DNA of 64,000 bases from Myxococcaceae bacterium JPH2. GTDB taxonomy: Bacteria; Myxococcota; Myxococcia; Myxococcales; Myxococcaceae. The position numbers and the translations under genes were made by a program. The notes beneath the pieces are model-generated. The model worked only from the letters and a program-made list of their open reading frames with translations. It was not told where the DNA came from and made no database searches. Location of the stretch: contig JAEMGR010000009.1 of the NCBI GenBank assembly GCA_016458225.1, forward strand, positions 186,001 to 250,000. The letters run 5' to 3'. Positions 28,644-34,826 of this stretch are shown here, one piece after another (the first letter of the stretch is position 1; every line of letters starts with the position of its first letter).

Positions 28644-29579
28644 ATGGTCCAGCTCGGCACGAGCGCGCTGAACGTCTCCCCCCTCTGTCTGGGTGGCAAT
28701 GTCTTCGGATGGACAGCCACCGAGCCGCAGACCTTCGCGGTCCTGGATGCCTACGCGGCGGCCGGGGGCAACTTCGTCGACACCGCCGACGTGTATTCCG
28801 CGTGGATCCCCGGCAACTCAGGCGGCGAGTCCGAGACCCTCCTGGGAAAGTGGATGGCCTCGCGCCACAACCGCGCGAACGTGATTGTGGCCACCAAGGT
28901 GGGCCAGCTCTCCGGACGCAAGGGATTGTCCGCCGCCAACATCCGCGCCGCCGCCGAGGACTCCCTGCGCCGGCTGAAGACCGATTACATCGACCTGTAT
29001 TACGCACACATCGACGACGGCTCACCGCTCGAGGAGACGCTGGGCGCGTTCGACGCGCTCGTGCGCGAGGGCAAGGTGCGAGCCCTGGGCGCCTCCAACT
29101 ACTCGGCCGAGCGGCTGGCCCAGGCGCTCGAGGTCTCGCGCCGCAATGGCCTGGCGCGCTACGTGGCCCTGCAGCCCCACTACAACCTGATGGAGCGCGC
29201 GGGCTTCGAGGGCTCGCTCCAATCGCTGTGTGAGCGCGAGAAGCTCGGCACCCTGCCCTACTTCGCGCTCGCGGCGGGCTTCCTCACCGGCAAGTACCGG
29301 CCCGGCCAGCGCGTGGAGAGCGCCCGCGCCGAGCGCGCCCGTGCCTATCTGAATCCGCGCGGCCTGCGCGTCCTCGCCGCGCTCGATGAGGTGGCTTCCG
29401 CGCAGCGCACCACCGTGTCCGCCGTGGCGCTCGCCTGGCTGCGTGCCCAGCCCTCGGTCGCGTCCCCCATCGCCAGCGCGCGCACCGTCGAGCAGCTCCA
29501 GGACCTGCTGCCCATGCTCCAGCTTCAGTTGAGCGCGGAACAGGTCCGCCTGCTGACCGAAGCCTCCGCCGAGCCGTGA
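28644..29579 (+). CDS. Aldo/keto reductase
   Basis: This 311-residue NADPH-dependent oxidoreductase of the aldo/keto reductase superfamily starts at ATG 28644 with GAGGAG eight nt before. MVQLGTSALNVSPLCLGGN is the typical N-terminus. NFVDTADVYSAW has the catalytic Asp and Tyr, VIVATKVGQ the Lys, and YYAHIDDG the His region. SPIASARTVEQLQDLL forms the cofactor-binding end. In-frame sequence upstream to 28578 overlaps the terminator and is not coding. A second, different aldo/keto reductase lies at 48159. The substrate is unknown, and the gene stands alone. Confidence 0.9.
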   Translation: MVQLGTSALNVSPLCLGGNVFGWTATEPQTFAVLDAYAAAGGNFVDTADVYSAWIPGNSGGESETLLGKWMASRHNRANVIVATKVGQLSGRKGLSAANIRAAAEDSLRRLKTDYIDLYYAHIDDGSPLEETLGAFDALVREGKVRALGASNYSAERLAQALEVSRRNGLARYVALQPHYNLMERAGFEGSLQSLCEREKLGTLPYFALAAGFLTGKYRPGQRVESARAERARAYLNPRGLRVLAALDEVASAQRTTVSAVALAWLRAQPSVASPIASARTVEQLQDLLPMLQLQLSAEQVRLLTEASAEP

Positions 29580-29607
29580 GTCCGCCGGCCGCGCGGGGAG
29601 CGAGCAG

Positions 29608-29636
29608 TTGCATCATCTGCGCGCGCCGTTTATAGC
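29608..29636 (+). promoter_or_regulatory. Candidate sigma-70-type promoter of the ABC-F gene
   Basis: TTGCAT and TATAGC are separated by exactly 17 nt, about 180 bp upstream of the ABC-F start. AT-rich boxes are rare here, which raises the interest. A transcript from about 29643 would contain the whole leader hairpin. Confidence 0.45.
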
Positions 29637-29738
29637 TAGCTGCGCTGTTCGACGCGTCATCCCGAGGGCCGCCGCCCTCTTGTCGCTCTGGAGGGACCCG
29701 CCCTCCGCCACACGAGGTCGTCACACCCTTGCGCCTGC

Positions 29739-29808
29739 ACTCCTGAATCCCCGGTTGCCGTTGACGTACCCCTTCGCGCTCTTCGGGGCGTGATCCGGAT
29801 TCAGGAGT
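29739..29808 (+). promoter_or_regulatory. Leader hairpin that sequesters the ABC-F ribosome-binding site
   Basis: ACTCCTGAATCC (29739-29750) and GGATTCAGGAGT (29797-29808) are perfectly complementary over 12 bp. The right arm contains CAGGAG, the ribosome site for the TTG start at 29815. The 46-nt loop holds an inner CCCC/GGGG stem. A five-codon frame, TTG-CGC-CTG-CAC-TCC-TGA (29729-29746), preceded by GAGG, ends inside the left arm. A ribosome stalled there would open the hairpin, as in translational attenuators of resistance genes. Confidence 0.6.
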
Positions 29809-29814
29809 CGCTGC

Positions 29815-31329
<1,515 letters not shown>

Positions 31330-31385
31330 GACGCGAGACACCAATCCCTGTCGCGCCCCCGGAACCCTACCTTTCCGGTGCTTCT

Positions 31386-31405
31386 CCAGAATTACAAGTT
31401 TCTGG
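31386..31405. promoter_or_regulatory. CCAGAA-N8-TTCTGG inverted repeat upstream of the CARDB lipoprotein gene
   Basis: A perfect 6-bp dyad lies 77 bp before the lipoprotein start and 57 bp after the ABC-F stop. TTCTGG and CCAGAA half-sites recur at about 31421 and 31454. It may be an operator; no T-run follows, so it is unlikely to be a terminator. Confidence 0.35.
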
Positions 31406-31481
31406 TAACTCCCCGACCTGTTCTGGAGTGGACGAAGGGCCGGCAGCGCCGCTCCAGAACCCCTCACAGGAAGGGGAGTCC

Positions 31482-34400
31482 ATGAAACGGCAACAACCGA
31501 CGTCGAGCATCACCCGCCTGCTTTGGCTCGCGGGGATGCTTGCGGCAGTGGGCTGTGGTGGCGCAGGTGATTCCAACGCGACAGACACCTTGGGCAAGAA
31601 AGGGCAGGCGCTCGTCTCCGCGCCGGATCTCGTCATCACGTCTCTGAGTGGTCCCCCCAGCGCCACCCCGGGCGGCGCCTTCACGGCGACCGTGAAGGTG
31701 TGCAACATCGGCACGGCGGGCTCCTCCAACGCGCGACTGGAGCTGTATCTCTCCACCACCGCGACCTTGGTCTATCCGCCCGCGCCCCCGGCCTCGGGCC
31801 AGATGCTCATCGGCTCGCTGGATGTGCCGGGCCTGATGAATGGCCAGTGCGCGACGCGCACGGTCCCCGCCTATGCCTCAATCCCTCCGGGTGGGTCGCC
31901 GGACTCCGCCTACTCCCTGGGCGCGGTCATCGACGCGAACCAGGCCCAGTCGGAGCTGCGTGAGGACAACAACACGTTCGTCGCGGGGTTGATGGGCGTG
32001 GGCAACCGCTTGGACCTCGTCGTCACCCGCGTGAGCGCGCCCGCGAGCGTGCGCCCGGGGAACGCCTTCACCGCTTCCGTCACCGTCTGCAACCAGGGCA
32101 CGTCCTCGACGAACGCCAGCAACATCCCCGTGGAGCTGTACCTGTCCACCGTCCCCAGCCTCACGATGCCCGGCATGGGCGTGCCCCCGCCGCCCACGCA
32201 GATGATGCTGGGCGCCACGACCGTGAGCTGGCTCGCCCAGGGACAGTGCACCACGCGCTCGCTGACCGTGAACGCCTACCTGCCCCCCGCCGCGACGGGG
32301 GACGGCGCCTATACGCTGGGCGCCATCGTGGATTCGTACCGCTCCGAGCAGGAGCTGCGTGAGGACAACAACGTCTTCATCAGCGGCCTCATCGGCGTGG
32401 GCAACCGCTCCGACCTCGTCATCACCCGGCTGAGCGCGCCGCCCAGCGTGACGCCGGGCAACCCCTTCACCGCGTCCCTCACCGTCTGCAACCAGGGCAC
32501 CAACCCCACGAACACCAGCAACATCCCGGTGGAGCTGTACCTGTCCACCGTGGCCAGCCTCACCTCGCCGCCCACGCCGCCCCCGGCGACGCAGCGGATG
32601 ATCGGCTCCACGCAACTGCCCATGGTTCCGCCGGGCCAGTGCCTCACCGTCGACGTGTCCGTCTCCGCCCAGCTTCCTCCGGCGGCCACGGGCGACGGGG
32701 CCTACACGCTGGGCGCCATCGTCGATCCGTATGGCTATGAGCAGGAGCTGCGCGAGGACAACAACGTCTTCATCAGCGGGCTCGTGGGCGTGGGCTATCG
32801 CTCGGACCTCGTCGTCACCCGCGTGAGCGCGCCAGCCAGCGTGACGCAGGGAGGTCCGTTCATCGCCTCCGTCACCGTCTGCAACCAGGGCACGTCGACC
32901 ACGGGCGCCAGCAACATCCCCGTGGAGGTGTACCTGTCCACCGTGGCCAGCCTCGCCGCGCCCGTCTCGGGCGGCCCCTATGCGCCTCCGCCGAGCCAGA
33001 TCATGCTCAGCTCGTTCTCCCTGTCGTACCTCGCGCAGGGGCAGTGCACCACGAGAGACCTGCAGGTGAACGCGTACCTGCCTCCCGAGGCCACCCCCGA
33101 CACCGCGCTCTTCGTCGGCGCCATCGTCGATCCGTACGGCTATGAGATGGAGCTGCGCGAGGACAACAACACCTTCGTCGGCGGGCTCATCGGCGTGGGC
33201 AATCGCTCGGACCTCGTCATCACCCAGCTGAGCGCGCCGCCCAGCGTGCGGATGAGCGCCCCTTTCACCGCATCCGTCACCGTCTGCAACCAGGGCACGT
33301 CCACGACGAGCAGCAGCAACATCCCCGTGGAGCTGTACCTGTCCACCGTCCCCAGCCTCGCGCTGCCGGGCATGGGCGCCCCGCCGCCGTCCACGCAGAC
33401 GGTGCTGGGCTCCGTCTCGCTGTCCTCGCTCGCGCCGGGGCAGTGCGTGACTCGCAGCCTCACGGTGAACGCCTACCTGCCTCCGGACAGCACGGGTGAC
33501 GGCGCCTATACGCTGGGCGCCATCGTGGATCCGTACCGCTCCGAGCAGGAGCTGCGCGAGGACAACAACGTCTTCATCAGCGGCCTCATCGGCGTGGGCA
33601 ACCGCTCCGACCTCGTCGTCACCCAGGTGAGCGGTCCCCCCAGCGTGATGCCTGGCGCGGCGTTCACCGCCACCGTCACCGTCTGCAACCAGGGCACCAC
33701 GATGACGAGCGCCAGCAACATCCCCGTGGAGCTGTACCTGTCCACCCTCCCCACGCTCACCGCGCCGTCGCCCATGTCCGGGCCTCCGCCCAGCACGCAG
33801 AGCCTGCTGGGCGCGCTCGCGCTCACGCCCCTCGACGTGGGGCAGTGCACCACGCGCACCCTGACGGTGAACGCCTACCCGCCTCCGCCGACTTCGCCTT
33901 TGGCGGACCGGGCCTACTACCTGGGCGCCATCGTGGATTCGTTCGGCAGTGAGCTGGAGCTGCGCGAGGACAACAACACCTTCATCGGCGGACTCGTCGG
34001 GGTGGGCACCAGTCCCGACCTCGTCGTCACGCAGGTGACGGGCCCCGCCAGCGTGCGCTCGGGCACCTCGTTCACGGCCGTCGTCACCGTGTGCAACCAG
34101 GGCACGTACCCGATGAGCTACACCGCGCTCCCGGCGGAGCTGTACCTGTCCACCACCTCCACGCTCGCCCTTCCGTCCCCGTCCGGCCCGGGCCCGATGA
34201 ACCCCAATCAGATGCGGGTGGGCATCCTCACCCTGCCGCAGCTCGCGCCCGGTCAGTGCACCACCCAGACGGTGCAGGCCTACGCGGACCTCCCGCCCTC
34301 GAACACCGGCGACGGGGCCTACTACCTGGGCGCCATCGTGGATCCGAACCGCTCCGAGCCGGAGCTGCGCGAGGACAACAACACCTTCGTCGCGGGCCTC

Positions 34401-34826
34401 ATCGGCGTGGGCAATCGCTCGGACCTCGTCGTCACCCAGGTGACCGCTCCGACGAGCGTGCGCATCGGCGCTCCGTTCACCGCCACCGTCACCGTGTGCA
34501 ACCGAGGCACGGCCATGGTCATGAACAACAACATCGCCGTGGAGCTGTACATCTCCACCGTGCCCCGCATCACCCCGCCTCCGTCGCCGCCCTCGGGGCC
34601 CGCGCCCACGAGCCAGCTCATGTTGAGCTACCTCGTCATCTCGCCGCTCGACGCGGGGCAGTGCACCACGCGCACGATGAACCCCAACGCGTACCTCCCC
34701 TCCGACGCGGGTGGCCTCGCCGGGGTGTATTCCCTGGGCGTGATCGTTGACTCGTACCGCCAGGAGCTGGAGCTGCGCGAGGACAACAACATCTCGGCGC
34801 TCTCCTCGTTGTTCGTGTTGCCGTAG
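31482..34826 (+). CDS. Lipoprotein with eight CARDB-like repeats
   Basis: AAGGGGAG precedes ATG 31482. The 1114-residue protein has a signal peptide with lipobox (LLWLAGMLAAVGCGG) and then eight repeats of 129-136 residues. Each begins with D-L-V-V/I-T-x-(V/L)-(S/T)-x-P-x-S-V and ends with ELREDNN followed by GL-(I/V)-GVG. Each contains VTVCNQGT and VELYLSTV and one paired Cys per half. This matches the CARDB (cell adhesion related domain) pattern, an immunoglobulin-like fold found in surface proteins of bacteria and archaea. It probably forms a rod on the cell surface, with disulphide-stabilised domains. The ligand is unknown. Confidence 0.85.
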   Translation: MKRQQPTSSITRLLWLAGMLAAVGCGGAGDSNATDTLGKKGQALVSAPDLVITSLSGPPSATPGGAFTATVKVCNIGTAGSSNARLELYLSTTATLVYPPAPPASGQMLIGSLDVPGLMNGQCATRTVPAYASIPPGGSPDSAYSLGAVIDANQAQSELREDNNTFVAGLMGVGNRLDLVVTRVSAPASVRPGNAFTASVTVCNQGTSSTNASNIPVELYLSTVPSLTMPGMGVPPPPTQMMLGATTVSWLAQGQCTTRSLTVNAYLPPAATGDGAYTLGAIVDSYRSEQELREDNNVFISGLIGVGNRSDLVITRLSAPPSVTPGNPFTASLTVCNQGTNPTNTSNIPVELYLSTVASLTSPPTPPPATQRMIGSTQLPMVPPGQCLTVDVSVSAQLPPAATGDGAYTLGAIVDPYGYEQELREDNNVFISGLVGVGYRSDLVVTRVSAPASVTQGGPFIASVTVCNQGTSTTGASNIPVEVYLSTVASLAAPVSGGPYAPPPSQIMLSSFSLSYLAQGQCTTRDLQVNAYLPPEATPDTALFVGAIVDPYGYEMELREDNNTFVGGLIGVGNRSDLVITQLSAPPSVRMSAPFTASVTVCNQGTSTTSSSNIPVELYLSTVPSLALPGMGAPPPSTQTVLGSVSLSSLAPGQCVTRSLTVNAYLPPDSTGDGAYTLGAIVDPYRSEQELREDNNVFISGLIGVGNRSDLVVTQVSGPPSVMPGAAFTATVTVCNQGTTMTSASNIPVELYLSTLPTLTAPSPMSGPPPSTQSLLGALALTPLDVGQCTTRTLTVNAYPPPPTSPLADRAYYLGAIVDSFGSELELREDNNTFIGGLVGVGTSPDLVVTQVTGPASVRSGTSFTAVVTVCNQGTYPMSYTALPAELYLSTTSTLALPSPSGPGPMNPNQMRVGILTLPQLAPGQCTTQTVQAYADLPPSNTGDGAYYLGAIVDPNRSEPELREDNNTFVAGLIGVGNRSDLVVTQVTAPTSVRIGAPFTATVTVCNRGTAMVMNNNIAVELYISTVPRITPPPSPPSGPAPTSQLMLSYLVISPLDAGQCTTRTMNPNAYLPSDAGGLAGVYSLGVIVDSYRQELELREDNNISALSSLFVLP
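31626..34826 (+). repeat. Eight tandem coding repeats of about 390-410 bp
   Basis: Units begin at about 31626, 32013, 32412, 32805, 33210, 33609, 34017 and 34422. Spacing is 387, 399, 393, 405, 399, 408 and 405 bp, always a multiple of three. Middle units are most alike, for example the segment encoding GDGAYTLGAIVD, which suggests expansion by unequal exchange. Confidence 0.9.

Follow-up and report, generated by a model that had tools for sequence, protein, structure and literature searches.

The window analysed here, a stretch of 64,000 nucleotides from Myxococcaceae bacterium JPH2, carries on its + strand a gene for a 504-residue ABC-F ATPase (29815–31329), which starts with TTG at a place where its orthologues mostly have ATG or GTG. 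In the leader of this gene, ACTCCTGAATCC (29739–29750) and GGATTCAGGAGT (29797–29808), separated by 46 nt, make up a perfect 12-bp inverted repeat on the same strand. The right arm includes CAGGAG, 6 nt before the TTG start, and within it the SD of the ABC-F gene (GGAG, 29804–29807), which is nearly invariant among orthologues and has co-varying flanks, and the left arm includes CTCC (29740–29743) as the putative anti-SD. A five-codon uORF on the + strand (TTG CGC CTG CAC TCC TGA, 29729–29746) ends inside the left arm and has GAGG upstream (29714–29717) as its putative own SD, 11 nt from the uORF start, a spacing above the usual. The original prediction had placed both the repeat burying the CAGGAG of the TTG start and the five-codon frame, preceded by GAGG and ending inside the left arm, at these very positions, which proved correct. 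Folding of the leader in silico, which it had proposed as a check, agreed with this placement: in the minimum-energy fold of 29700–29850 the 12-bp helix is formed and the CAGGAG SD is paired. The fold energy of the leader is overall unremarkable (z −1.43), and the improbable part is the arrangement. No intrinsic terminator was found in a terminator scan of 29400–30000, so that control would be translational, and comparison of the leader with Rfam returned no relevant family.

A candidate promoter-like pair on the + strand, TTGCAT (29608–29613) and TATAGC (29631–29636) spaced by 17 nt, had also been predicted. The sequence is present, but the 29608–29636 pair was missed by a strict sigma-70 scan, which found no promoter. 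Most orthologues have similar pairs, of the form TTGC-N17 or N19-TA, ahead of their uORF and usually closer to it than in the window, where the pair ends 92 nt before the uORF and the transcript start is thus uncertain. In the window's family, the GAGG of the uORF can pair with an upstream CCTC into a small hairpin (29702–29717, + strand), as judged from the GAGG of orthologues and from folding of the 32 nt that precede the uORF. This hairpin may partly occlude the SD of the uORF itself.

The product of the 29815–31329 gene has two ABC_tran matches, contains DEPTNHLD, with the catalytic glutamates, twice, and is devoid of a transmembrane part. Its best NCBIfam model is NF000355 (ribosomal protection-like ABC-F), at 287 bits and below the cut-off of 380. 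The distance from Walker A to the signature of ABC1 is 78 residues, which indicates that the EttA-type Arm is missing; this subdomain is also missing or strongly reduced in ARE1 and ARE2 (PMC6723617). An AlphaFold model (mean pLDDT 91) displays a soluble two-ABC fold with linker helices at residues 195–245 and 255–289. The solved structures nearest to this model are VgaL (Z 33.9), VmlR2 (33.8), human ABCF1 (32.2) and VmlR (31.5), with further matches to LsaA (30.5), VgaA-LC (30.4) and EttA (30.1), and querying the PDB with only the linker yielded no match. With PLSA-type resistance ABC-Fs nearest to the model, the evidence leans towards a protection factor against drugs of the pleuromutilin, lincosamide and streptogramin A type, and the gene is a probable, predicted ribosome-protection gene. 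Alternatively, the ABC-F might be a housekeeping translation factor under general translation-state control, with the uORF serving for coupling or reinitiation or sensing slow initiation or starvation. Such a role would suit a chromosomal gene that is near-universal in the family, scores below the resistance-model cut-off and has EttA only about 4 Z units under its best structural match. We nonetheless regard it as improbable, given the absence of the Arm as in ARE1/2, the long distance from uORF stop to SD, mostly 42–84 nt, which argues against reinitiation, and the start-anchored geometry described below, which is as expected for initiation-arresting drugs.

Orthologues of the ABC-F were found in 79 of the 96 genomes of the window's family (E ≤ 1e-60) and also in other families belonging to the same order and phylum, with that of Sorangium cellulosum at 57% identity. 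Leaders were sampled from 91 orthologues, two of which were cut by contig ends, leaving 89 complete leaders. A uORF of 2–5 codons, located on or adjoining the segment that pairs with a recognisable SD, is present in 86 of these; in eight leaders, mostly with several candidates, the uORF resembling those of the others was picked by hand. The exceptions are L179 and L187, which lack the arrangement and may be regulated differently, and L197, which has ATG CAC TCC TGA but no clear SD. The 86 uORFs start with TTG (56), ATG (23) or GTG (7), and with no other codon, stop with TGA (77) or TAG (9), and comprise five codons in 72 cases, three in 12, and two and four in one each. When mapped onto the protein tree, start type changed at least five times, length five times and stop type twice, always to another valid state. 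The encoded peptides vary in sequence and length between orthologues, and no conserved stalling peptide is present among them. The upstream neighbour, an aldo/keto reductase gene, adjoins the ABC-F gene within the genus only. The leader has thus been retained together with the ABC-F gene rather than within some larger conserved block, and a conserved operon was therefore discarded as the cause of conservation. As judged from these leaders, the uORF and the SD-sequestering helix have been kept, in the same relative position, throughout the order and outside it, and the arrangement is old and widespread rather than recently acquired.

The region preceding the uORF differs among orthologues. In 61 of them, GAGG precedes the uORF start by 11–12 nt, and in many distant ones the uORF has no SD in front. 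In L172–L178 and L182–L196, such an SD-less uORF follows a hairpin, in many cases with a 7-bp stem and a 4-nt loop, that is contained within the 32 nt upstream and ends about 4 nt before the ATG; its sequence varies by species while the hairpin is kept. A promoter-like pair near −57 in these distant orthologues would put the hairpin near the mRNA 5′ end.

The arrangement was also compared with chance expectations. The SD-pairing energy considered by itself gave P = 0.015 against shuffled leaders. When the uORF and the SD-pairing arm were considered jointly, by counting shuffles with a 2–5 codon ORF ending in the right zone and a following segment whose pairing with the SD matches that of the actual leader, none of 3000 dinucleotide shuffles was as good (P 1/3001). 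If pairing is ignored, about 11% of the shuffles of the window leader have a 2–5 codon ORF in the zone. Over 35 representatives, a uORF is expected in about 9% of cases per leader (shuffle mean) and was observed in 35/35, although the leaders share descent, the per-leader P values are thus not independent, and their combined value is not to be read as a probability. The pattern CTCCTGA-N40-70-TCAGGAG occurs once in the 9.0-Mb genome, at this locus, and no further copy of the repeat was found; the reversed control pattern occurs twice, so that uniqueness alone means little.

Conservation of the pairing in relatives, the test on which the original prediction had staked itself beforehand, was found throughout the order and outside it and included compensatory changes. 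Standard pairs make up 84% of the cells of the 12-bp helix across 30 distinct sequences from the window's family, compared with 17–48% in a control with the partner slid by 1–3 columns. One pair is exchanged from C-G to G-C in seven sequences and another from U-A to A-U in four, and several pairs vary by G-U exchange. Mismatches occur beside or within the anti-SD core in several sequences, with two in the core in one large genus, where the SD would hence be only partly closed; it is not fully closed in every genus. As the pairing register shifts across families, an alignment-free test was applied to 24 distant representatives, in which each leader segment was paired with its own SD region and with those of the others, and the pairing energies were compared. 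Native arms outpaired swapped ones for the segment spanning −8 to +12 nt of the first base of the uORF stop (z −5.8, 0/20000 permutations), whereas segments without this zone reached |z| values of up to 2.9. The latter result is direct evidence for co-evolution, through base pairing, of the SD with the end of the uORF. The comparisons also bear on the reading of the repeat as a DNA operator or a non-regulatory hairpin, with the uORF being incidental. A perfect 12-bp repeat can serve as an operator site, and the match to a consensus promoter is weak; yet the arms co-vary, also with G-U pairs that break DNA symmetry, their spacing differs between genomes with one arm always on the SD, and a uORF is found in every representative instead of the small fraction expected. 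We consider this explanation highly improbable overall, and the operator was rejected on account of the G-U exchanges and the variable arm spacing.

In 51 distinct five-codon leaders, the centre of the GGAG partner lies 13.5 nt (sd 0.3) past the uORF start; the distance has a median of 14.5 nt in the twelve three-codon leaders (10/12 within 12.5–16.5) and is 14.5 and 10.5 nt in the two-codon and the four-codon leader, respectively. When positions are referred to the stop, the means are −2.6 (five codons), +3.2 (three) and +7.5 (two), so that the anti-SD precedes the stop in five-codon uORFs and follows it in most three-codon ones. Hence, irrespective of how long the uORF is, nearly every leader keeps its anti-SD about 12–16 nt from the uORF start. 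On the vmlR uORF, the toeprint of a ribosome whose P site holds the start codon was measured 16 nt downstream (PMC9226507); by this measure, the start-anchored anti-SD would be beneath the leading edge of an initiation-arrested ribosome. Because the anti-SD is anchored to the uORF start and not to a conserved peptide, the sensed event is probably arrest at initiation, as in vmlR and cplR, rather than peptide-specific stalling, as in erm.

In the erm leader-peptide attenuators, a leader ORF is likewise combined with RNA structure, and arrest depends on the leader peptide together with macrolides. A related explanation for the myxobacterial leaders would be peptide-specific or termination-stage stalling in the uORF, similar to erm or msrD, or a stop codon that senses release-factor activity. 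The location of the stop codon inside the helix in five-codon uORFs and the M-[KR] that begins most Myxococcaceae-type uORFs would fit such a mechanism, but neither peptide sequence nor length is conserved, TAG replaces TGA in nine leaders, and the distance to the anti-SD is constant from the start and not from the stop, all of which makes it unlikely. Sensing specific to the stop codon or RF2 is disfavoured in particular, owing to this same replacement and to the shift of the stop relative to the anti-SD.

We therefore favour initiation arrest as the sensed event and regard it as likely that the leader is a translational attenuator that works like those of vmlR and cplR. The original prediction had already read it as a translational attenuator, a reading that is reinforced by the conserved uORF, helix and relative position, and no terminator was found. 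We infer that the uORF is translated and that arrest on it induces the downstream gene, as follows. In normal translation, the five-codon uORF would be crossed fast, and the left arm, with the anti-SD and the uORF stop, would refold onto the SD, so that little ABC-F would be made. If a ribosome were arrested at or just after the uORF start, for instance by a drug preventing formation of the first peptide bonds, its leading edge, at about +16 and here at 29744, would cover the anti-SD at 29740–29743. The SD at 29804–29807 would thereby be freed, and the ABC-F factor would be made and help clear the drug from ribosomes. In short, a ribosome stuck at the uORF start, such as by an antibiotic, would probably switch the putative protection gene on. 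When a ribosome footprint was modelled on the uORF start, the unpaired probability of the SD rose from 0.00 to 0.30 in the window, while over 86 leaders the mean SD accessibility rose only from 0.19 to 0.21, so that the release is not general. As the effect averages out over the orthologues, thermodynamic modelling alone would not reveal the mechanism.

By analogy, initiation-arresting PLSA drugs (pleuromutilin, lincosamide and streptogramin A type) would be candidate inducers. Among natural candidates, myxovalargin, a peptide of myxobacterial origin that halts translation immediately after initiation (PMC9853869), may be considered attractive. A broader reading, which we hold to be evenly poised, is that myxobacteria and their relatives possess an old, peptide-independent RNA sensor of initiation-arrested ribosomes. 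It would consist of an ORF of 2–5 codons whose start lies ~12–16 nt from the anti-SD, so that any start-freezing drug would elicit a rescue ABC-F, and in several lineages the uORF would lack an SD and follow a GC-rich hairpin ending ~4 nt before the ATG.

Control of ABC-F factors by ultrashort uORFs has been worked out in Firmicutes (PMC9226507, PMC10201436). In Bacillus subtilis, the MIN uORF of vmlR is accompanied by a hairpin that sequesters the SD of the gene, and initiation-arresting drugs induce (PMC9226507). The myxobacterial system shares with it a chromosomal ABC-F gene, an ultrashort uORF of variable sequence and an SD-sequestering hairpin, here as read from sequence. It differs in that vmlR relies mainly on a transcription terminator/anti-terminator and RNA polymerase pausing (PMC9226507), whereas no terminator was found in the myxobacterial leader, and in that the uORF itself overlaps the anti-SD, giving one merged element. 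The cplR leader of Clostridioides difficile, with its MRI uORF, for which translational attenuation suffices for repression, is alike in its ultrashort uORF and SD sequestration (PMC10201436), but it belongs to Firmicutes, has three codons and carries an intrinsic terminator overlapping the SD, in contrast to the mostly five-codon, terminator-free myxobacterial leaders. In msrD, a leader ORF and RNA structure also control a ribosome-directed resistance gene, but arrest requires the leader peptide plus macrolides (PMC10314930), unlike here, where peptides differ among orthologues and the start codon anchors the geometry. The myxobacterial leader can thus be said to work like the vmlR/cplR kind, by translation only, and is not a full member given the lack of a terminator, the differences being the phylum, the absent terminator, the merged uORF and anti-SD, and the breadth of conservation. 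The original comparison with the ABC-F and erm architecture of Firmicutes holds for the vmlR/cplR part and probably not for the erm part, as the anti-SD is anchored to the start and a conserved stalling peptide is lacking. In line with its supposition that a myxobacterial case would be new, no account of this type of regulation in myxobacteria turned up in the literature searched, which covered only a minority of subscription papers and does not prove novelty.

If correct, this would be a minimal, terminator-free version in Gram-negative antibiotic producers and predators, and sensing of initiation arrest would be old and widespread. The natural series of uORFs, with 2, 3, 4 or 5 codons, TTG, GTG or ATG starts and TGA or TAG stops, bears on the question of sensing at the start codon. 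For these producers of myxovalargin and other drugs, the ABC-F itself would be a candidate factor of intrinsic protection.

A long frame on the + strand (30750–34826), located downstream of the ABC-F gene, contains many repeats of a motif like SDLVVTQVSAPASV...REDNN and probably encodes a secreted repeat protein.
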